Positions 2,587 to 21,695 of a stretch of 64,000 nt of DNA are shown here, in pieces. Source of the stretch: Myxococcus xanthus (GTDB lineage Bacteria; Myxococcota; Myxococcia; Myxococcales; Myxococcaceae). The position numbers and the translations under genes were made by a program. The notes beneath the pieces are model-generated. The model was not told the DNA's origin. It saw only the letters and a program-made list of their open reading frames with translations, and ran no database searches. Where the stretch lies: assembly GCF_900106535.1 (NCBI RefSeq), contig NZ_FNOH01000002.1, forward strand, positions 372,001-436,000. The letters are read 5' to 3'. The stretch's first letter is position 1; each line of letters opens with the position of its first letter.

Positions 2587-5500
2587 TCAGAAGCCGAGCG
2601 GCAACACGAAGGCCGTGCCGTTCTGCGTCCCCGTCCGGTAGCTGCGCGGCGCGCCGATGACGAGCATGGGCGGCGAGCTGCCGCTGCCCGGCATCATCGA
2701 CATCGCCTGCCCCAGCGCCGAGCGCTCCGAGCCATCTCCCACCACCATGAGGAACGGTGAAAGCGCGCCCTGCTGGCCAACCCCGCCAGCATAGAGAAAC
2801 ACCGCGCCACCGCCGTCGGACGCCTCGGAGGCGCCCGGCGCGCTCACCAGCAGGTCGGGGATGTTGTCGCCCGTGAGGTCCGTGCCGCCCACCAACCGCG
2901 CGCCGAAGTTCACAGCGCGGTGACGGTGGACCAGGACAATGGGGTTGAGGCCGTCGCCCAGCGCGCCCACCACCAGCGGCGAGCCCGCGGACTGGAGCGC
3001 CTGCATCCGGTTCACCAGCACCGTCTTGTCGAAGAGCAGCACCACCGGCTGCGTCACGCCGTTGAAGGGCACACTGGTGGCGCTGATGGCCACGAAGTCA
3101 CGCGTGTCGCCCAGGAACCGGCCCGCGCGCGTCATGCTCAGGCCCAGGCCCATGTTGGTGAGCTGCACCTCGCTGTCACCGGCGATGCGCCACAGCGTGG
3201 CCGTACTGCGCCCGCCGCAGCGCGCGCCGCCCGCGTCGAAGCCCAGCAGGATGGCCACGCCTGACCGCGACCCTTCCGCGTAGCGCCAGGCCAGCTCGTC
3301 ACAGCCATCACCGTTGAGGTCGCCCAACGACACCGGCGCGAACGTTTGAATGTCCATGGACGGCATCGTGTAGATGGGCTCACACATCATGCTCAGCTTC
3401 GCCAGCGACGCGTCCTCGGGCGCGCGGCCCAGGAACACCTCCATGCCGTCGTTGCGCAGCAGGCCCACGTCCTGGCGGCCATCGCCGTTCAAATCAAACC
3501 CGCCCACCACGCCGCGCCCGATGCCGGTACGCCGGCAGAGGGCCTCCGGCTCCAACGTGCAGTCCGCGATGACGTTCGGCGCGAACAGCCGGTACGCCGG
3601 CTTGAAGCTGCCGTCCGGCTGTCCCAGTGACACCAGGGCACCGCCCACCGACTGGGTGCCACTGGTGACACACGCGGCGGGCACCGACGTGTACGTGTTG
3701 TTGAGCTCGTTGTTGGAGCTCGTGGTGCCCGTGCCCGGCACGTAGAAGTTGGACGCGCCCACCACCAGGTCTGGACGCCCGTCGCCGTTGAAGTCGGAGA
3801 AGGCCACGTCCACGCCCACGTTGCGGCCCGCCTGGTGCGGCGAGGGCAGGCCCTCCTCCACCACGGTGGCCTGCGCGGGCGCCGACACGTCGTGCACGTA
3901 GGCACGGCCAATGGTCAGGGCGTTGCCGTCATTGCTGGTGCCGGGGCCGGACCAGCCCGGCGCGCCCGTGAGCACCAGCGGACGGCCCTGCGGGCCCTGA
4001 GCAATCGCTACCGCCTCGCCGAAGCGCTCCACGCTCGGCTTCGCAGGCACCCGGACGCTGGTGCGCGTCCACTCCGTCACCGACGCGCCTTGACGGTGGT
4101 ACAGCTCCACGCTGCCGGTGAAGGCCCCCTGAGCCGAAGAGGACCGGCCCGCGAAGGCCACCAGCGACGGGTTCGCCGCGGGGCCCCAGGTCGCCAGCCC
4201 CGAGCCCAGCGTGTCCGACACCGCCGTCCCGTTGATGACCGTCAGCGGCCGGTTGAGGATGCTGCCCTGCGTGAGCGTGGCCAGGGGATAGACGAGAATC
4301 TTGCCGCTCCAGCGCAGCGTGCCGCTCCCCACACCCGATGGCGCGGACGCGTACGGCGCGCCCAGGAGCAGCTCCAGGCCCGGCTCGCCGTCGACGTCCA
4401 TCACCGCCCAGCTCCGGCCCGCGTTGATGCCGCTGGCCTCGCCGTAGATGCGGGCGAAGGCCGCCTCGCGCGTCACCTGGGGCGGCCGGTTGGCGGGCTC
4501 GCCGGTGGCGGAGTAGCCCGTCAAATCGAACAGCAGCGCACCACCCGAATCACTGCCGGACTGCAGGCCCCCGCTCGAGCGCAGGTCCGGCGAGTCCGCC
4601 CGGTCCGCCACCGCCAGCAGCAGCGGAGGCCGCGTGCCCTCGGCGGGGATGACGCCCAGCCGCCACGTGCCCTCGTTGCTGTCCGCCGTGTTGGCCGGCA
4701 GCACGTACACGTCCGGCGATGCCCGGAAGCGCGCGCCTTGCGCGCGTGCCAGGAAGACGGAGATGGCCATCTGCGCGCCCGACACCGCTCCGGACGCGTT
4801 GTACCGGGACACCCGGCTCAGCGCCGCCAGGTCCACCAGGCCGTCCCCGTTGAGGTCGCCCGTCACCAGCGCGCGGCCCAGCTCGGTGCTGCTGCGCGAC
4901 ACCAGGGCGCCGTCCTGCGTCAAATCCCAGCCGCCCAGCCGCACCGTGGGGAGGTCCGGCACCGGCGAGCTCCGCGTCGACGCGTAGATGTCCACCGTGC
5001 CGCGGTTGCGGATGGCGTTGGTGGGGGCCAGGTCGCCCAGCGGCGAGCCCACCACCACGTCCAGGTCGCCGTCGCCCTCGAAGTCCGCGATGGCCATGCC
5101 CGAGCCGAACGCCGCGTTGCGGAGCAGGCCGGTGAGCTGCTGGCGCAGCGGCGCCGGCGCCCCGCTTCGGAAGGTGTAGAGGTACACCGCGCCGGCGTTG
5201 GTGACGGCCACGTCCGCGCCCGGCGAGGACACCAGCAGCTCCGCGCGCCCGTCCCCATCCAGGTCGCCCGCGGCCAGCGCGTCACCGAACTGCGCCGTCT
5301 CCGTGGTGCCGGTGAGCACCCACGTGGGCTCCGTCGGCAGGCCGCCGCTCCCCCCCTTGAAGATGAACACGGCGCCGCCCGACGGCTCGTTCAGGTCGCT
5401 CTCGCGCTGCCCCACCGCCAGGTCCAGGTGGCCGTCACCGTCGAAGTCCGCCGTCACCAGGGTGGCCGCGTCGGACAGACGGCCGTGCGGCAGTCCCGGC

Positions 5501-6324
5501 CGCGTCAGCTCGTCCAGCACGCGCACCGACACCCGCGCCGTGTCCCCGGTGAAGGGGTCCGCCGCATTGAGCACCGCCACGCCGGTAGCGCCGGGCTCGA
5601 TGGTCAGCCGGCCGCCCGCCAGCGTCCCGGGGCCGGACTCCTTCGTCCAGTTCACCCGGTCACTGCCACCGCGCGTGGCCAGCGGCACGGACGAACCCGA
5701 GGGAACGGCGAGGAAGGCCGGCGCTCCGGTCAACCGGGCATGAGTGCGGACCTCGTACTGGAGCACCGCCTCGTCGCCCGACTGCGTGTCGCGCACGGTG
5801 ATGACGTCCAAGCCCTCACGCGTGCCGGCCGTATAGAGGCCGCCAGGCGACAGCGTGGCGCCGGAGCCGTCGGCCGACAGCAGGTACATGGCCGAACCCA
5901 GCACGCCGTCCGTCACCACCTGGAAGGAGGTGCCCGGCCGCAGCTCCGCGCGCACGGGCGCGACGTTGAACGTCGCCGCCACGTTGACCTGCGTGGTGGC
6001 GCTCACGCCCGGGCAGCGCGCGTCCTCCACCACCAACGTGTCCGTGCCCGGCGTGCGCCCCGCCAGGAAGCGGCTGCCCACCAGCTCACCCGAGGAGCCT
6101 CCCGGCTCCAGCAGGTAGGTGTAATGACCGCTGCCGCCGGTGGCCACCAGGGCCACGGGGCTCGACACACGCACGCGCGCGGGCTGCGCGGTGAGCGTCA
6201 GCGCGGCCAGGCCCGTGCACTGGTCCGTCTGGTGAGGCTGCGCCACGCGCGCGGGCGCAGGCTCATCCGAGCAGGCCGCGGCAAGGAGCGCGAGGAAGGG
6301 GGCCGCGCGGGTCAGTCGGGACAT
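2587..6324 (-). CDS. Large FG-GAP repeat lipoprotein (integrin-like beta-propellers)
   Basis: 1245 residues from the ATG at 6324, chosen because it starts a lipoprotein signal (LLAAACSD, lipobox Cys19) and lies 32 nt after the upstream gene; the open frame runs longer upstream but would overlap that gene. Residues 30-280 look like Ig/big-type beta domains. From about 290 onward there are at least nine calcium-binding loops of the form DxNGDGxxDLxxG, the mark of FG-GAP (integrin alpha) repeats, probably forming one or more beta-propellers. It should sit on the cell surface or in the periplasm. It is the last gene of the 12032-2587 operon. Function is unknown; protein or matrix binding is the usual role. 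Confidence 0.9.
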   Translation of the reverse strand: MSRLTRAAPFLALLAAACSDEPAPARVAQPHQTDQCTGLAALTLTAQPARVRVSSPVALVATGGSGHYTYLLEPGGSSGELVGSRFLAGRTPGTDTLVVEDARCPGVSATTQVNVAATFNVAPVRAELRPGTSFQVVTDGVLGSAMYLLSADGSGATLSPGGLYTAGTREGLDVITVRDTQSGDEAVLQYEVRTHARLTGAPAFLAVPSGSSVPLATRGGSDRVNWTKESGPGTLAGGRLTIEPGATGVAVLNAADPFTGDTARVSVRVLDELTRPGLPHGRLSDAATLVTADFDGDGHLDLAVGQRESDLNEPSGGAVFIFKGGSGGLPTEPTWVLTGTTETAQFGDALAAGDLDGDGRAELLVSSPGADVAVTNAGAVYLYTFRSGAPAPLRQQLTGLLRNAAFGSGMAIADFEGDGDLDVVVGSPLGDLAPTNAIRNRGTVDIYASTRSSPVPDLPTVRLGGWDLTQDGALVSRSSTELGRALVTGDLNGDGLVDLAALSRVSRYNASGAVSGAQMAISVFLARAQGARFRASPDVYVLPANTADSNEGTWRLGVIPAEGTRPPLLLAVADRADSPDLRSSGGLQSGSDSGGALLFDLTGYSATGEPANRPPQVTREAAFARIYGEASGINAGRSWAVMDVDGEPGLELLLGAPYASAPSGVGSGTLRWSGKILVYPLATLTQGSILNRPLTVINGTAVSDTLGSGLATWGPAANPSLVAFAGRSSSAQGAFTGSVELYHRQGASVTEWTRTSVRVPAKPSVERFGEAVAIAQGPQGRPLVLTGAPGWSGPGTSNDGNALTIGRAYVHDVSAPAQATVVEEGLPSPHQAGRNVGVDVAFSDFNGDGRPDLVVGASNFYVPGTGTTSSNNELNNTYTSVPAACVTSGTQSVGGALVSLGQPDGSFKPAYRLFAPNVIADCTLEPEALCRRTGIGRGVVGGFDLNGDGRQDVGLLRNDGMEVFLGRAPEDASLAKLSMMCEPIYTMPSMDIQTFAPVSLGDLNGDGCDELAWRYAEGSRSGVAILLGFDAGGARCGGRSTATLWRIAGDSEVQLTNMGLGLSMTRAGRFLGDTRDFVAISATSVPFNGVTQPVVLLFDKTVLVNRMQALQSAGSPLVVGALGDGLNPIVLVHRHRAVNFGARLVGGTDLTGDNIPDLLVSAPGASEASDGGGAVFLYAGGVGQQGALSPFLMVVGDGSERSALGQAMSMMPGSGSSPPMLVIGAPRSYRTGTQNGTAFVLPLGF

Positions 6325-6356
6325 GTCAGGTACCTCGAGGGAGACTGCGCGTTGCT

Positions 6357-7886
6357 TCAGGGCCTGGCGCCAGAGGAGGCCCAGCGCTGGATGCGGGAGA
6401 TGAGCTCGGGGTCCATGGGACCATCGGCGGGCATCCGCTGGTCTCTCACGGCTCCAGTGATGATGGGCGCGTTGGCCCGCCACAGCTCATAGCTGTCGAG
6501 CGAGCGCGCCGCGCTGGAGCTGTTGTGGCAGTTGCGGCACCGCGCCTCGTGGATGGGGCGGATGTCCTTGTCCCAGCTCAGCGGCCCCGACGCCAGGGGC
6601 GCATAGTCGAACGGCACCGAGCGCTGCGCCTCCGAACCATCCGCGTAGCGCGCCACCACCGACAGGACGTAGCGGCCGGCCTCCAGCGACGCGAAGGAGT
6701 AGGCGCGGTGCGTCCCGTCGGCCTCCAGACCGCCCAGGCTGTAGTCCGGCCCCTCCGTGGGAATCTCCGAGTTGCCCAGCTTGTAGACGACGCTCTCGGG
6801 CGCTCCGCCCGGCGGCATCACCGCGCGCACCACCAGGCCGTCATTCACCAACTGCATGCCCTGGTAGAGCCCCCGGAGGCGCGGCACCAGCACGTGGCTC
6901 AGCGCGACGGACACCCCGCCCTGCTGCACCCAGACGCTGCCGCTCTCGTCCGCGGCGAGGAAATGGAAGTCCCCGGCGCCGGCGTCCGTGGCCGCGCGCC
7001 AGACATTCGCGTCCGCATCGTACTGGAGCAGCGAACCGCCCGTCTTCGCCCACAAGAAGCGGCCCGAACCGATCAACTTCTGCGGCTGCTGCGGCAGCTC
7101 CACGCGGCGCCAGCCGTCCTTGCCCCGGCGCAGCAGGGCCTGGTTGGTGAGCGCCCACAGCTCGCCAGAGGTGCCCACCGCGGGCCCGATTCCGGCCAGC
7201 GCTTGCAGCGACTCGCCTTCCGCCAGGGGCGCGCTCGTGGTGTGCACCCGGTAGTGGGCGGTGCTGAGGGCCACCGCGACGCTCAGCCCGCCTTCGTGCA
7301 GGAACCACACGCCGGGCAGGTTCTCCGGTGAGGGCGCCGCCGCCAGCGAGGTGATGGCCTTCACCGACGCGCCGTCCACCTTCAGCTCCGCCAGCGTGCC
7401 TTCCTGCAGGCGGAACAGGCCGCGCGTGTGCGCCAGCCACACCGCGCCGTCCGCGGACTGCGCGGTGGCGATGACGCCCTGCCCCAGCGCGTCCCGCCAG
7501 GGCGGCGCGATGAGCCACCCCGACTCCGCCATGAAGAGCCCGGTCTGCGTCTCCACCAGGGCGCTGTGAGGCCCCAGCCGGAAGACGCCGAGGATGCCGC
7601 CCGCCGCCGCCTCATTGTCCGGGTGCGGCTCCAGCGCCCCGTACGTGCCGTCCAGCCGCAGCCGGACGAGCTCGCGCGAAGCGGTGGCGAAGACACCCCC
7701 GCCCGCCTGGTCCGCGAAGCCGGAGACCGGTGCCAGGGCCGTGACGGCGGGGACCTGGACCGGCTGGAAGGGCGTCGGCTCGGGCTTGTCGAGCGGAAGC
7801 GAACGGTCCTCCCCGCACGCCCCCAGGACCACGAGCGAGAGCAGGGAGAGGACGGCGGAGGCGGAAGCCCTCGGATGGATGCGCAT
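6357..7886 (-). CDS. Lipoprotein with beta-propeller and C-terminal c-type heme motif
   Basis: 509 residues. The N-terminus is a lipoprotein signal ending LVVLGACG (Cys24). Residues 50-340 show repeated GxVW and LxALxx segments like a sensor-type beta-propeller, and residues 345-420 resemble an Ig-like strand module. Near residue 455 CRNCH is a CxxCH heme c attachment site, set in a short cytochrome-like tail that resembles the PSD1/planctomycete cytochrome C-like domains. A later Met in DQRMPADGP could be the axial ligand. It is the fourth gene of the five-gene operon, 14 nt after the DUF1501 gene. Confidence 0.85.
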   Translation of the reverse strand: MRIHPRASASAVLSLLSLVVLGACGEDRSLPLDKPEPTPFQPVQVPAVTALAPVSGFADQAGGGVFATASRELVRLRLDGTYGALEPHPDNEAAAGGILGVFRLGPHSALVETQTGLFMAESGWLIAPPWRDALGQGVIATAQSADGAVWLAHTRGLFRLQEGTLAELKVDGASVKAITSLAAAPSPENLPGVWFLHEGGLSVAVALSTAHYRVHTTSAPLAEGESLQALAGIGPAVGTSGELWALTNQALLRRGKDGWRRVELPQQPQKLIGSGRFLWAKTGGSLLQYDADANVWRAATDAGAGDFHFLAADESGSVWVQQGGVSVALSHVLVPRLRGLYQGMQLVNDGLVVRAVMPPGGAPESVVYKLGNSEIPTEGPDYSLGGLEADGTHRAYSFASLEAGRYVLSVVARYADGSEAQRSVPFDYAPLASGPLSWDKDIRPIHEARCRNCHNSSSAARSLDSYELWRANAPIITGAVRDQRMPADGPMDPELISRIQRWASSGARP

Positions 7887-7900
7887 GCGAAATGGACGGC

Positions 7901-9331
7901 TCAGGCGAGAATGGGGCGCAGCGGTTCGACGCGGGTGATGCTGTAGTCCAGCCCCGCGGACGCCAGCACCGTGGCGATGACGTGCTCGGGGAGGATGTTC
8001 TCGCCGTTCGGGTCCGACGCGCCGTTGCGCAGGTCGAAGGTGCCCGGCGCCATGCCAATGTCACCGCTGCGGCCGAACACGAAGTTGTGCTTGATGCCGG
8101 CCCCCATCAGCAGCGCGGAGTTGCTCAGGTGGTGGTCACGGCCACCGGAGCTGTTGATGAGCGGCGTGCGGGAGAACTCGGAGAACACCATGATGGTGGT
8201 GTGGTCCATGAAGGTGCCACCCGCGGGATGGTCGCTCTCACGCAGGTCCTTCACCAGCATGGCCAGGGCGTCGAAGCCGCGCCGCTGATTGTTGGCCTGC
8301 GTGAGCTGGCTGCCGAAGTGGGTGTCCAGGCCGCCCGTGAGGTTGATGGTGACGCACTGGGCGATGCCCTTCTTCAGCGCGGTCGCCACCGTGGCGGCGC
8401 GGCCGCGCTCGCCGTTCACGTCGTTGGCGCTGGTCAGGTTGTACTTCGTGCGGATGACCGCCATCTCCGCGCTGTGCGGCTGGTTGGCTCCAACGAGGAA
8501 GTCGAACGACTTGTCCAGTCCCTTGGACTGGATGAGCCGCATCTGCTCCTGGCTGTTGGAGTAGGTGGTGCCCACCCCACGCGCGCCATAGGCCGCCTGC
8601 TCGCAGTTGACGGGCTGGCCGCGGAAGTCGAGCAGCTGCTTCTCGAGTTCACTGTCCAGCGCGTCCGCGCTGCCCTTCAGCGTCAGGATCAGGTCGTCCC
8701 GGCGGCTGACGCGCAGCGCGTTGGCATAGCCGCCGTACCGGTCGTTGTACGACTCCACGTTGTAGGAGATGGAGGCAATGGGCACGCGCGGCTTCATCTG
8801 CCCCACGATTTCAGTCGCCGTGGAGGAGCCACGCGCCGCGCTGCCAATGGGCATCTTCCCGGTGAGGAAGTAGCGGTAGCCCACCTCGTGGCCCAGCGTG
8901 TTCATGTTGATGCCGCGCACCACGGTCATCAAATCGTAGTGCCTGGCCAGCTCGGTGCCCACCGCGGGCCCGAAGTCGATGTTCGACCGGCCCACGCCCG
9001 GAAGCTCGGCGGGGATGAGCGGCCGGGCCTCGAAGCGGGTGTCGTTGATCTGGTCGTAGCCCGGGAGGATTTTCGTCTCCGAGGCACGGTCCGCCGTGAA
9101 CTCGGTCGGGTCCCTCGGGTCGAAGGCCAGCAGTTGGTCCCATCCACCGTTGAAGTAGACGAACACGAAGCAGCGGTCCGCCGGCGCCATCTCCGCCGCC
9201 TGGGCGAAGGCGCGGAAGGGCAGCCCACCCAGCAGGGTGGAGCCCATGAAGCCAGCGGTGGCCTTGAGGAAGGTACGGCGTCCGTGGGCGCAGCCCTGGG
9301 AGCAATTCTCGTCGTGGCGGTTCTTCTTCAT
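7901..9331 (-). CDS. DUF1501 family protein, Tat-exported
   Basis: 476 residues. The ATG at 9331 has GGAG eight bases upstream and lies 17 nt after the preceding stop. The N-terminus carries a twin-arginine motif (GRRTFLKATAGF, about residues 18-29) and a hydrophobic core ending AFAQA, so export by Tat is likely. The body has the DUF1501 hallmarks: FVYFNGGWDQL, GGLDTHF and a GGRDHH motif near the end, as in the sulfatase/alkaline-phosphatase-like fold. DUF1501 genes usually sit beside DUF1549/DUF1553/DUF1800-type genes, as here. The biochemical activity of the family is not established. Confidence 0.9.
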   Translation of the reverse strand: MKKNRHDENCSQGCAHGRRTFLKATAGFMGSTLLGGLPFRAFAQAAEMAPADRCFVFVYFNGGWDQLLAFDPRDPTEFTADRASETKILPGYDQINDTRFEARPLIPAELPGVGRSNIDFGPAVGTELARHYDLMTVVRGINMNTLGHEVGYRYFLTGKMPIGSAARGSSTATEIVGQMKPRVPIASISYNVESYNDRYGGYANALRVSRRDDLILTLKGSADALDSELEKQLLDFRGQPVNCEQAAYGARGVGTTYSNSQEQMRLIQSKGLDKSFDFLVGANQPHSAEMAVIRTKYNLTSANDVNGERGRAATVATALKKGIAQCVTINLTGGLDTHFGSQLTQANNQRRGFDALAMLVKDLRESDHPAGGTFMDHTTIMVFSEFSRTPLINSSGGRDHHLSNSALLMGAGIKHNFVFGRSGDIGMAPGTFDLRNGASDPNGENILPEHVIATVLASAGLDYSITRVEPLRPILA

Positions 9332-12765: not shown

Positions 12766-13027
12766 CGCGCTGAATCAGGGCGTCGACGAAGCAGTCAGTT
12801 GGAGGGCGCCCGAACGCACCGCCCCAGGTCGATGTCAGGCGGAGACGGAGGCAGGTGCCTGCTTCAAGGCCCAGCCCGGCGAGCCGGGCTTCCAGCGGAA
12901 CATAGAAGCCGTGAAGCGCTTCCAGGTGACGTCGGTACGCAGTGGGCGTCAGGTCCGCATCCATCAAACGCACCTGGGTCTCGGTGCGCTCGTGGTGCGG
13001 GCGCGTCTCACTCTTCAGTCGCTGCAT
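12731..13027 (-). pseudogene. Truncated heme oxygenase remnant
   Basis: The first 50 codons after the ATG at 13027 read as a heme oxygenase: LKSETRPHHERTE carries the proximal-His pattern LKxxTxxxHxxxE (His12), and AYRRHLEALHGFYVPLEARL fits helix 2-3 of the family. After about residue 55 the match is lost in this frame. A neighbouring frame resumes a family-like DLGRCVRAP before a stop, so a frameshift plus decay is likely. Bacterial enzymes have about 190 residues, and here only 98 remain. The end overlaps the convergent DUF420 gene by 35 nt, and no good ribosome site is seen. Confidence 0.6.
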
Positions 13028-13144
13028 CAAGGACAAGGTGCTTGCACGATGCCGCTGTCGCTGCCCGGTGGGAATTGGGAACTGTGGCCAAGTGTCCACC
13101 GCTCTCCCCCTCGGCCGCTCTGGACACGGGCTCTCGAGCCTTCC

Positions 13145-15709
13145 TCAGCGACAGAAGCCGCTGGCCGTGCACGTCCGTCCCAGCCCACACGTCAGGCCAG
13201 AGGTGCGGCAGTTGGGCTGGCACGCTCCCGAACCCGTGCCGTCGCTGTAGCAGACGTACCCGGGGCGGCAGTCCCCCTGCCCCGTTCCCACCTGCCGCGT
13301 GCAGGTCGCCAGACATGCCTTGAGGCCCGAGGAGGAATCCACGATGTAACACCGCGAGCCCGCCGGACACGCGGAGCTGGTGCAATCCATGGAGCAGTAC
13401 CCGCCCGGATAGTCCGTCACGCACACGCCCCCGGGACAGTCCACGTTGGAGCCGCACGCACTGCCCACCACCAGCGCCGGGTCATCATCGATGGGCGCCA
13501 GGGGAATCAGGTCGAAGCTCACATTCTCGATGCGGTCACCCGCCTCCAGCTCCAGCGGCTCGAAGGAGTCCACGTTGCGCCAGTAGCCGGTGCGCTCGCC
13601 GTCCTCGAAGAAGTTGCCATCCTGGTCGTCGTCGATGGTGGCCAACGCGAAGTACGTCCGCGGCGCCAGGGAGATGCTGTACGCGTAGTCCGCCGAGGCG
13701 CGCGCGACCGCGATGGCGTCCTTCGAGGCCTGCCACTCCCCTCGCGCGTCCTGCCACACGAACGCAATCAGGGCGTCCAGGTCATTGGCTGCGCCCGCCA
13801 CGCCAATCTTCACCGCCACCGTCGCCGAGCCCGCCGTCCCCGAGCCCACCAGGCTCAGCGTCACCACGGTGTCCCCTCCGGCCAGCCCGGATGCATCCAC
13901 CGCCACACTCAACGGGGCCGAGCTGAAGGCGGGTACCCGCACCGTGTTGCCCTGCGGGAATGACACCGCCGAGGCATTGGGCCCACTGACGCTGGCCGAT
14001 ACCGTCAAATCGCCGCCCCGGTTCCCGCCCACGTTGCTGAGAATGAGCGGCTGCGTCCCGCTGCCCCGGAAGAACAGTGTGGACGTCGTCACGTTAAGCT
14101 GAGGGTCCAACGTGCCAGGGTCCACGTTGGCGATGCGGGCCAGCGCCGCTCGCGCGTTGACGAGCCCCGCGCCGCAGCCCTCCGGGCACTGCGCGTTGGT
14201 GAGCGGCGTAGCGGTTTCCTTCAAGATGCGCTCCGCCAGCGCGGCCGTCAGGTCCGGCCGCGACGCCGCCATCAGCGCCACCACGCCCGTGACGTGAGGC
14301 GCCGCCATGCTGGTGCCCTGCGAGAAGGCATAGGCAGGCTGCCCGTTCTCATCCAGCACCGTGGACAGCACGCCGTCCGGATAGCCGTCGCCGTTCAGGT
14401 CCTCGCGCATCTCCCCACCAGACGCCACCACGTCCACGTCCACGCCGTAGTTGGAGAAGCTGCTGCGCTGGCCCGCAAGACTGGTGGAGCCCACACAGAC
14501 GACGTTCTGCTGGTTGCACGGCGTGCTGGTGCGCGCATCCACGTCCTCATTGCCCGCGGCGACGACGATGATGGCCCCGCGTCCCAAGGCCGCGTCGATG
14601 GCGTCCTGGTACAGCGCCTGCGGCGGCGCGCGGCCACCCAGGCTCATGTTCACCACCTTCGCGGGATTGGGATTGGGCGGTACGCCCGGCACGGGGCCGC
14701 CCGTGGCCCAGGTGATGGCCGCGGCGATGTCGAAGCTGCTCCCGCCCTTCTTCCCCAGCACCCTCACTGGGAGCAGCCGGGCGTTCCAGGCCACGCCCGC
14801 GACGCCCACCTGGTTGTTCGTGTCCGCGGCGATGGTGCCCGCCACATGCGAGCCGTGCCACGTCGAGCCGCCGCTGGGCGTGTCCCCACCTTCGTCCCGC
14901 GGATTGCTGTCCCGGCCATCGCCGTCACCCGCGTTCTCCGGGTCCGAAATCATGTCGTAACCCGGCAACACATTCGTCAGGTCCGGGTGCGGAACGATGC
15001 CGCTGTCGAGGACGGCCACCACCACGCTGGACGCGTCCGGCACCAGGTCCCACGCGGCCGGCAGGTTGAGCGTGGGGTAGTGCCACTGAAGGCTGTAGCC
15101 CCGGTCATTCGGCGCCGCCGTCGCCCGCATCCGCTCGTTGCGCACCGCATACGTCACGCCCGGCACCTGGGCGAGCTGCGCCGCCCACTCCTGCGTCTTC
15201 GCGGCCGTCACCGCCTTGCCGTCCAGCGGCTCGTAGCCCACCAGGTGCACGTACTCACTCGCGTAGCCCTTGTGCACCGCGCGGAAGCCCGGGCGCTGCA
15301 CCGCCGCCAGCACGCGCTCCGGTGTCAGGCCCGCTTCCTCGAAGCGGAGGATGACGTCTCCGGGAATCGTGGGGTCCTCGCGAGAGGCCCGCTCGAGCGG
15401 CGCGGCGGCCGGCTGCGACGGGATGATGGGAAGCCCCGGCATGGCCTTCGGCGCCACCCGCGGCTCGCGCGAGCGTCCCGCGTGCATCCCCCGCAGCGTC
15501 TCCTTCAGCTTCTCCAGCTCACCCGCGCGAAACGGCGAGCGCACCGTCTGGGAGGCACCGTCGCCTGCGGACCGTTCGCTGCTCCGGAAAGGCGTCAGCG
15601 TCCCCTGGATGCGCCCGGTCCTGGAGGACTGCTCCCCCGGGTCTTCGTCGTCGCCTGAACAGGAGGTAACGGAGAGCAGCAACAGTCCCATCAACAGCAG
15701 GCGACGCAT
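13145..15709 (-). CDS. Secreted subtilisin-like serine protease (S8) lipoprotein
   Basis: 854 residues. The ATG at 15709 has GAGGGG eight bases upstream and begins a lipoprotein signal (LLSVTSC, Cys17). After a propeptide-like region the S8 catalytic triad is complete: Asp235 (VAVLDSG), His285 (HGSHVAG) and Ser467 (GTSMAAP), with oxyanion Asn387 (AAGNE). Residues 535-740 are beta-sandwich domains. The last 110 residues hold about 20 cysteines in EGF/EB-like spacing, a tail often found on myxobacterial secreted proteins. It would degrade proteins outside the cell or in the envelope. It follows lhr on the same strand by 70 nt. Confidence 0.92.
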   Translation of the reverse strand: MRRLLLMGLLLLSVTSCSGDDEDPGEQSSRTGRIQGTLTPFRSSERSAGDGASQTVRSPFRAGELEKLKETLRGMHAGRSREPRVAPKAMPGLPIIPSQPAAAPLERASREDPTIPGDVILRFEEAGLTPERVLAAVQRPGFRAVHKGYASEYVHLVGYEPLDGKAVTAAKTQEWAAQLAQVPGVTYAVRNERMRATAAPNDRGYSLQWHYPTLNLPAAWDLVPDASSVVVAVLDSGIVPHPDLTNVLPGYDMISDPENAGDGDGRDSNPRDEGGDTPSGGSTWHGSHVAGTIAADTNNQVGVAGVAWNARLLPVRVLGKKGGSSFDIAAAITWATGGPVPGVPPNPNPAKVVNMSLGGRAPPQALYQDAIDAALGRGAIIVVAAGNEDVDARTSTPCNQQNVVCVGSTSLAGQRSSFSNYGVDVDVVASGGEMREDLNGDGYPDGVLSTVLDENGQPAYAFSQGTSMAAPHVTGVVALMAASRPDLTAALAERILKETATPLTNAQCPEGCGAGLVNARAALARIANVDPGTLDPQLNVTTSTLFFRGSGTQPLILSNVGGNRGGDLTVSASVSGPNASAVSFPQGNTVRVPAFSSAPLSVAVDASGLAGGDTVVTLSLVGSGTAGSATVAVKIGVAGAANDLDALIAFVWQDARGEWQASKDAIAVARASADYAYSISLAPRTYFALATIDDDQDGNFFEDGERTGYWRNVDSFEPLELEAGDRIENVSFDLIPLAPIDDDPALVVGSACGSNVDCPGGVCVTDYPGGYCSMDCTSSACPAGSRCYIVDSSSGLKACLATCTRQVGTGQGDCRPGYVCYSDGTGSGACQPNCRTSGLTCGLGRTCTASGFCR

Positions 15710-15779: not shown

Positions 15780-20120
<4,341 letters not shown>

Positions 20121-20388
20121 GGGCACCTCCACGGCTAGCCTGAACACAGGTACAGCCCGGCGTCAACGCGACAGAACGTCGTGAGTAGGCTCCCACCGCG
20201 GGTGCGCCCCGCGCCAGGCAGGGGCTCGGCGGGACGCAGCCCTTGCGTGCGGGCATGACGCTGACGCGTCACGGGAGCAGCGTGACGCGTCATCCACCAC
20301 CCGGCACAAGCCACCGCACACAGTGGAAGACCATGACACGGAGCACACGCGCTGATGCACCGCGCCTCGCCGCCAGGAGGAATGTGCC
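20121..20388. promoter_or_regulatory. Divergent regulatory region between lhr and the flavoenzyme locus, with tandem palindromes
   Basis: This 268-nt stretch holds no convincing gene. It contains two copies of the perfect 10-bp palindrome TGACGCGTCA at 20262-20271 and 20283-20292, with centres 21 bp apart (two helical turns, so on the same DNA face). The second copy is flanked by GCG on the left and T on the right, and ATGACGC precedes the first. This is the typical form of an operator for a dimeric regulator binding cooperatively. It lies 142 bp upstream of lhr and about 100 bp before the short ORF. An AGGAGG ribosome site for the short ORF is at 20375-20380. Confidence 0.6.
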
Positions 20389-20526
20389 TTGCACATCGCA
20401 CCTCGGAACATGAGGAGCGAAAGCTTGAGCCCCACCCACGAGATTCCCCAAGCCCCCGTCGAAACCAGGCGCCCTGAGCCCTGCCGCGACGGGACGCCCG
20501 CCGCCGCGCGGAGGGGCGCGCCATGA
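20389..20526 (+). CDS. Possible 45-residue peptide coupled to the flavoenzyme
   Basis: A TTG at 20389 lies eight bases after a perfect AGGAGG (20375-20380), and an in-frame ATG follows at 20410. The frame ends in TGA overlapping the next gene's start (ATGA at 20523-20526), so translation would be coupled. The peptide is polar and rich in Pro, Arg and Glu, with one Cys and no Trp, Tyr or Phe. No family is recognised. The third-base G/C share, about 80 percent by eye, is a little below that of neighbouring genes. It could be a real small protein, a leader that only couples translation, or chance. Confidence 0.35.
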   Translation: MHIAPRNMRSESLSPTHEIPQAPVETRRPEPCRDGTPAAARRGAP

Positions 20527-21695
20527 GCGAAGCCTCCTACGACGTCGCCATCATCGGAGGCGGCCCAGCGGGCGCGGCCATGGCCGTGGCGCTGCGAGAC
20601 CTGGCGCCCTTCCTGTCCGTCGTCATGCTCGAGCGCACGGATTACGACACGCACCGCCCGGGCGAGACCTTGTCACCCGACCTCCGCATCCCCCTGTCCC
20701 GGCTCGGTGTCTGGAGCAGCTTCCTGCGCGATGGACACCTGGCTTCGCGCGGGACGTCCTCGTGCTGGAGCCGCGCGGAGCCCCGCATCCAGGACACGCA
20801 GATGTCGCCCTGGGGCTCCGCCTGGCACCTGGACCGGGCACGCTTCGACGAACGGCTCAGCCTGGAGGCAGCCAGGCAAGGCGTCCGCGTCCTTCGCCTG
20901 ACGACCCTGCTGGACGTCGAGTCCATCGCGAAGGAGGGCTATCGGCTACACCTCTCCCAACGCAAGACAGGCGCGCTCACGCTGCGGGCGCGCTTCGTCG
21001 TGGATGCGACCGGATGGAAAGCCACCTTCGCCATGACCCAGGGCGCGCGGCGCCGCATCCGCGACCGCTGCTTCACCGTTCATGGCGCGTTCCAGCTCCG
21101 GCCAGGCGAATCGTTCCCCACGGATGCCCTGGTGGAATCATGTCCGGAAGGCTGGTGGCACTCCGCGCGACTGCCCTCGGACTGTGTCGCCGTCACCCTG
21201 GTGGGGGATGGAGATTCCTTGCACGGACTGCGCTGGGCGACGCCGGAACCATGGGCGGCCCTGCTCGAACAAGCCCCCGTCACCCAGGCGAGGCTGGCGG
21301 CCTGCGACTTCGCCGGAGAGCCTCTCGTCGCGGCGCCCGTGCTCGTCGGCGAACTCGACCAGATGCACGGTGAGCGCTGGCTCGCAGTGGGCGATGCGGC
21401 CTGCACCCATGACCCGCTGTCCGCCCAGGGAATCTTCAGCGCGCTGGACTCCGCGCTCCTCGCCGCCGAAGCCCTGGAGCAATACCTGCGCGGTGAAGAG
21501 GATGCGCTCTGCGCCTACGAGCAAACGCTTCATCTGCGCTTCAACGAACACCTGCACAGGCGAAGCCGCACCTACCTCGAGGAGCAACGGTGGCCCGACG
21601 CGCCCTTCTGGAAGAACCGGCACACCGCCTTCCCCGCCCTGACGCCCGCCGCGGGGCAGCGCTCCGCGCCAGCGCCCACCGGGCTCGCGCCATGA
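20523..21695 (+). CDS. FAD-dependent monooxygenase (tryptophan-halogenase / LodB-like superfamily)
   Basis: 390 residues. An FAD-binding Rossmann motif GGGPAG lies at about 13-18, and a second FAD motif WLAVGDAACTHDPLSAQG at about 290-307, as in group A flavoprotein monooxygenases and geranylgeranyl-reductase-like enzymes. PEGWWHSARLP near 215 sits where flavin halogenases have WxWxIP. It also resembles the corresponding stretch of LodB/GoxB/QhpG enzymes, which modify residues of a partner protein. The halogenase motif is not exact, so halogenation is not assumed. GGAGGGG lies before the ATG. It is the second gene after the palindromic region and has no LodA-like partner nearby. Confidence 0.75.
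   Translation: MSEASYDVAIIGGGPAGAAMAVALRDLAPFLSVVMLERTDYDTHRPGETLSPDLRIPLSRLGVWSSFLRDGHLASRGTSSCWSRAEPRIQDTQMSPWGSAWHLDRARFDERLSLEAARQGVRVLRLTTLLDVESIAKEGYRLHLSQRKTGALTLRARFVVDATGWKATFAMTQGARRRIRDRCFTVHGAFQLRPGESFPTDALVESCPEGWWHSARLPSDCVAVTLVGDGDSLHGLRWATPEPWAALLEQAPVTQARLAACDFAGEPLVAAPVLVGELDQMHGERWLAVGDAACTHDPLSAQGIFSALDSALLAAEALEQYLRGEEDALCAYEQTLHLRFNEHLHRRSRTYLEEQRWPDAPFWKNRHTAFPALTPAAGQRSAPAPTGLAP

Follow-up and report, generated by a model that had tools for sequence, protein, structure and literature searches.

The divergent space between lhr and a flavoenzyme gene in a Myxococcus xanthus genome (G000; 9.26 Mb, 91 contigs) contains two identical, perfect 10-bp palindromes with a centre spacing of 21 bp, which raises the question of what they bind and which gene they serve. 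The window, i.e. the whole stretch of 64,000 nucleotides that was analysed, corresponds to C2:372001-436000. The original prediction held that such an arrangement is very unlikely by chance, that it suggests the cooperative binding of a dimeric regulator and that this regulator is encoded elsewhere. The coordinates of both palindromes were found to be exact, as was their placement between lhr on the minus strand and the flavoenzyme gene on the plus strand (Table 1). In all probability, an activator that switches on the flavoenzyme gene docks at this pair, and paired sites like it precede many other genes in this genome and in those of related predatory soil bacteria. With a probability of roughly three in four, it would serve as the enhancer of an enhancer-binding protein (bEBP), most likely an FHA-like protein encoded on contig C9, driving a sigma-54 promoter of this gene.

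Table 1 Features of the window and predicted terpene-related targets
Feature	Position	Strand	Remarks
Distal palindrome TGACGCGTCA	20262..20271		Exact match; predicted half of an upstream activating sequence
Proximal palindrome TGACGCGTCA	20283..20292		Exact match; centre 21 bp from that of the distal one
Sigma-54 -24/-12 element AGGAATGTGCCTTGCA	20378..20393	+	GG 20379-20380, GC 20391-20392; conserved; 85 bp downstream of the pair
LodB/GoxB/QhpG-like flavoprotein, probable target gene	20523..21695	+	Trp_halogenase/FAD_binding_3 match
33-codon open frame, TTG start	20425..20526	+	TGA overlaps the flavoenzyme ATG; first codons resemble the lodA start in L068
lhr helicase, divergent neighbour	15780..20147	-	Domain search
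Encapsulin-cargo terpene cyclase	L083:8184-10451		Paired site
IPP isomerase	L083:3226-4284		Paired site
HMG-CoA reductase	L045:3145-4473		Paired site

Occurrence, spacing and conservation of the palindromes

The two copies of TGACGCGTCA are the only exact ones in the window, where copies with one mismatch occur at chance level. Genome-wide, 21 exact copies were counted as against one for the reversed control, and pairs separated by 11 bp (N11 pairs, up to three mismatches) numbered 11 as against none, their variants being mostly of the form TGACRYGTCA. A partner with at most one mismatch was present at 11, 20-22, 31-32 or 34 bp from 13 of the 21 exact copies, while the remaining eight stand alone. 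Exact TGACRYGTCA pairs with gaps of 1-31 bp showed centre spacings of 11, 20, 21 (four times), 22, 31, 32, 32 and 34 bp. A degenerate search returned 21 pairs, of which that at C7:81745 (spacing 34) may be due to chance and those at C5:547245 and C25:283 seem to be duplicates of a single sequence; the spacings were 11, 19, 20 (twice), 21 (eight times), 22, 31 (twice), 32 (four times) and 34 bp (twice), each equal or close to a whole number of helical turns. The phase concentration of these spacings at 10.5 bp was R = 0.85, a value reached by none of 200,000 uniform draws, and a freely fitted period gave 11.3 bp (R 0.88). A further pair at C17:164122, with three mismatches, was set aside as it looks like coding sequence. 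The genome-wide scan thus showed that the palindrome is uncommon and that most of its copies have a partner at helical distance, which makes a chance origin very unlikely, as had been claimed.

Within the genus, 18 of 25 genomes contain N11 pairs, as compared with none of 16 genomes from elsewhere in the order; family-wide, the pairs are present in 49 genomes out of 96, representing 8 of 26 genera, and the control sequence had no match in any of the 96. The window pair is present with the same spacer in G001, G006, G018 and G023, one palindrome in G018 being TGACACGTCA. In the diverged promoters of G017 and G024, both palindromes and the -24/-12 element are kept, the spacer differs and the central bases of the palindromes vary only within RY. 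Over seven aligned orthologous promoters, the distal palindrome is retained as TGACRYGTCA and the proximal one is conserved, while the spacer has diverged. The proposed alignment of orthologous regions also supported the original prediction.

The proposed sigma-54 promoter

The GG and GC of AGGAATGTGCCTTGCA lie 12 bp apart, which is the correct -24/-12 spacing, and the corresponding element in two diverged relatives (L053, L068) is GGGAATGTGCCTTGCA. Transcription is predicted to start near position 20404. The element is imperfect, with AGGAATG for TGGCACG, and it scored 19.7 of 23.9, below the threshold of 20, in a home-made consensus score with weights set by hand after the published consensus. 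Scores of at least 19 were found within 300 bp, on either side, for 22% of random non-coding positions, and the support for this element therefore comes from its conservation. No sigma-54 element of comparable quality was found facing lhr.

Examples of -24/-12 elements downstream of other pairs are TGGCACGAGTGTTGCC, TGGCATGTGCGTTGCT and TGGCTCTCGGATTGCT. In relatives, 39 of 54 N11 pairs with distinct spacers have a score of at least 20 within 300 bp, compared with 12.5% of non-coding positions; the nominal p of about 6 × 10^-24 is overstated because of the hand-set weights and because related genomes do not supply independent pairs. The distances from pair to element cluster at 50-51, 59-63, 73 and 145-150 bp, and they are phased more weakly than the pair spacings (R 0.58 at 10.5, 0.67 at 11). 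In the genome of the window itself, 14 of the 20 listed pair regions reached a score of 20, 13 of these 14 at 48-97 bp, and no good element was found at three pairs at C3:114358-114500 and one at C26.

Dyad sites 50-200 bp upstream of the promoter and repeated in helical phase (about 11, 21 and 32 bp genome-wide) are the arrangement of an upstream activating sequence, and the window pair is best read as such a sequence for the sigma-54 promoter of the flavoenzyme. On this reading, which goes beyond the original prediction, the promoter points towards the flavoenzyme and its sites form one member of a wider regulon.

The flavoenzyme and the probable loss of lodA

Flavoproteins of the LodB/GoxB/QhpG type are maturases of cysteine tryptophylquinone enzymes. 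The product of the probable target gene matched the NCBIfam LodB model with 243 bits, under the cut-off of 400 bits, and there is no adjacent lodA; it is therefore filed as LodB-like only. A search of the genome found neither LodA_N nor lodA. In G024, the same promoter leads into lodA and then the flavoenzyme gene, and in G015 and G021 lodA (LodA_N) is likewise situated beside lhr with the palindromes upstream. Palindromes were lacking at lodA loci in G002, G009 and G022, which are unrelated to this one.

The short open frame between the promoter and the flavoenzyme gene (Table 1) is probably the remnant of a deleted lodA, and it may have been kept for translational coupling or may be a relic. 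G017 (L053) has a frame at the corresponding position, likewise of 33 codons as read by eye, with a much changed sequence. We read the locus as a former lodA-lodB operon from which lodA was lost, the maturase being left under the old promoter.

The candidate regulator

The partner regulator had been placed outside the window, and a likely gene can now be named. It is the bEBP gene at G000:C9:162918-164600, close to a Ser/Thr kinase gene. In a signature scan of fetched loci, this bEBP surfaced only through its Walker motif; its loop reads GAYTGA, whereas many bEBPs have GAFTGA. On the basis of adjacency and co-occurrence, it is most likely the regulator of the palindrome pairs.

Directly 3' of its stop codon lies TGACGCGTCA-N22-TGACGCGTCC; a sigma-54 element and a small gene come next, and then a second arrangement of the same kind. 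The two small proteins (L034:13383-13730 and 12849-13268) matched no Pfam family. Similar small genes recur behind many orthologues of the candidate. Palindromes with at most one mismatch were present just 3' of the gene in 30 of 30 orthologue or paralogue loci fetched from 27 genus genomes, and the same was seen in named Myxococcus and Corallococcus records, several of which are the same genomes; such sites are partly co-inherited, so these counts are not independent trials. One record, L195 (BNCN01000006.1, titled Comamonas sp. KCTC 72670), has a Myxococcus-type regulator with 90% identity and the coordinates of G024, and its title looks misassigned. Among 20 more distant loci (18 of them from other genera), 14 have palindromes no more than 150 bp from the stop, and the 300 bp on the 5' side contain none. 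No palindromes were found near the gene in L263, L266, L276, L278 and L279, and in L270 only at 487 bp. L276 and L278 have ALGRR in the second HTH as against ALQRR in the candidate; L263, L266 and L279 have ALQRR and a similar DNA-binding domain, yet lack adjacent sites. Of 52 bEBPs in the genome, 36 were located for a proximity scan, and the candidate alone had an exact copy within 400 bp.

All eight genera with N11 pairs are among the nine of 26 that have the candidate bEBP (Fisher p 6 × 10^-6, uncorrected for phylogeny and confounded by it, from profiling that covered few of the 52 bEBPs), and this co-occurrence may reflect the shared ancestry of large-genome Myxococcaceae. A relative of the bEBP is present in G043, which has no pairs, and exact N11 pairs are missing from 7 of the 27 genomes of the genus even though the candidate is there.

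The candidate contains a sigma-54 AAA+ domain (PF00158, E 9.5 × 10^-58). A Pfam search found no FHA domain in its sequence; an AlphaFold model of the N-terminal domain (pTM 0.82) gave Foldseek matches of which the top ones were nearly all FHA domains (best E 10^-3, probability 1.00), and the domain is predicted to be FHA-like. As regards a Fis-type HTH, HTH_8 was matched at residues 476-504 with 19.1 bits, below the Pfam cut-off of 22. The model of the C-terminus shows two three-helix units, both conserved among relatives, with matches that include the NtrC4 DNA-binding domain (probability up to 0.97, E about 1); two tandem HTHs, one of them possibly NtrC4-like, are predicted. It is conceivable, if rather unlikely, that through the two HTHs of each protomer one dimer reads all four TGAC half-sites at once. 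If so, the helical spacing would be built into a single dimer and would not arise from cooperation between two dimers.

The Ser/Thr kinase gene is convergent to the small target genes, and inspection by eye indicated that the C-terminal part of the kinase recurs beside most orthologues of the candidate and that a kinase-like gene also adjoins its paralogue. The FHA domain may read a phospho-signal of this kinase.

Proposed mechanism and alternative explanations

A dimeric regulator that binds cooperatively to sites two helical turns apart, as proposed in the original prediction, is supported as the best reading, given that the palindrome is rare, helically paired and conserved. We infer binding to the DNA, and activation as the direction of control, as follows. 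A bEBP dimer or higher oligomer would occupy the two palindromes from the same side of the helix and assemble its AAA+ ring, possibly upon a kinase signal received by the FHA domain of the candidate. By looping of the DNA, it would contact the sigma-54 RNA polymerase at the promoter element, leading to ATP-dependent transcription of the lodB-like gene.

GC-rich genomes contain short exact repeats, and the chance level of one-mismatch copies in the window would suit a fortuitous or structural repeat without regulatory role; in view of the excess of exact copies and pairs over the controls, the helical phasing and the conservation of palindromes beside a diverged spacer, this explanation is exceedingly improbable. 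Perfect short palindromes are also typical of operators, and TGACGCGTCA appears once in a paper about BetI repressors, which would fit a conventional dimeric repressor of the TetR, GntR or MarR type that has no connection with sigma-54. Operators of this kind are very unlikely here, as most of the sites are situated 48-150 bp upstream of a sigma-54 element, with distances that cluster, and not over promoters, and the sites are stably linked to a bEBP gene.

As a sigma-54 enhancer, the pair could also serve a different bEBP among the 52, for example the C1:1033953 paralogue, 59% identical to the candidate, or the bEBP at C9:149632-151842. The latter was missed by the proximity scan and has exact copies beside it, and it was therefore considered separately: three palindromes lie between it and a divergent OmpA-family gene, and bEBPs often act on genes adjoining their own. 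At E ≤ 10^-150, however, it was found in only one of the 26 genera and had no match in the pair-bearing G005, G007 and G041; it was rejected as the regulator. This gene (L034:630-2843) is located about 11 kb from the candidate, with an OmpA-family/DUF4215 gene pair (3008-8307) divergent from it, and the bEBP gene is whole in some genomes of the genus and split or stop-containing in others. The paralogue, with ALNRRVKELGL for the ALQRRVRELGL of the candidate, has no palindrome in 14 kb; it was rejected as sole regulator since it was not found (E ≤ 10^-100) in G001, G015 and G024, which keep pairs. Judged from the few bEBPs profiled, control by one other than the C9:162918-164600 protein is improbable.

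Predicted target genes

Besides those in Table 1, where the terpene cyclase is a family 2 encapsulin cargo and the IPP isomerase is of type 2, the genes behind pairs encode class 3 lipases, an MPAB/Lcp oxygenase, amidohydrolases, a phosphoesterase, a protein with a weak AurF-like match, LodA, GON-domain proteins and an OmpA-family protein. A giant gene with Ig-like domains also lies behind a pair, between ftsA- and ftsZ-like genes (flanks named by eye from the first residues). The paired sites at the cyclase, the isomerase and the reductase suggest joint control of terpene supply and cyclisation, and the predicted list also holds surface and small exported proteins. Of the dozens of sigma-54 activators in myxobacteria (52 in this genome), few have a known DNA target; what emerges here is an enhancer code that can be read, together with a list of predicted targets and a candidate regulator encoded close to a Ser/Thr kinase.

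Comparison with known systems

Among the matches listed in a literature search there was no myxobacterial paper with this decamer, and by title the listed papers look unrelated. The palindrome pair would work like an NtrC-type enhancer. FHA-domain enhancer-binding proteins of M. xanthus were reportedly described by Jelsbak et al. in 2005 (cited in PMC6971385), and the candidate resembles them in its sigma-54 AAA+ domain and, by model only, in its predicted FHA-like N-terminus. NmpR of M. xanthus, an NtrC-type bEBP and two-component response regulator, acts at promoters with a pair of dyad sites ahead of the sigma-54 element, which have the motif GCGCA-N5-TGCGC and 14-15 bp between sites (PMC11841059); the present system shares the two dyad sites, a spacing preference, the sigma-54 element and, for the candidate, a bEBP of NtrC type, and differs in the motif, in the distance between sites and in the kind of regulator. 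Nla28 binds tandem sites upstream of sigma-54 promoters, including those of natural-product genes, with the half-site CT(C/G)CG(C/G)AG, a looser spacing and a histidine-kinase partner (PMC9765219, PMC7910581). Tandem sites at sigma-54 promoters are common to both, whereas the half-site sequence is different and the spacing tighter here. The known LodA/LodB lysine oxidase operon (PMC4417212, PMC3948610) is similar in its LodB-like flavoenzyme and in the lodA-lodB order seen in G024, and dissimilar in that the window genome is without LodA and the LodB score is below the family cut-off. Judged from the sequence, the regulon would be new but of a familiar kind; the palindromic motif and the predicted tandem HTH are the additions made here.
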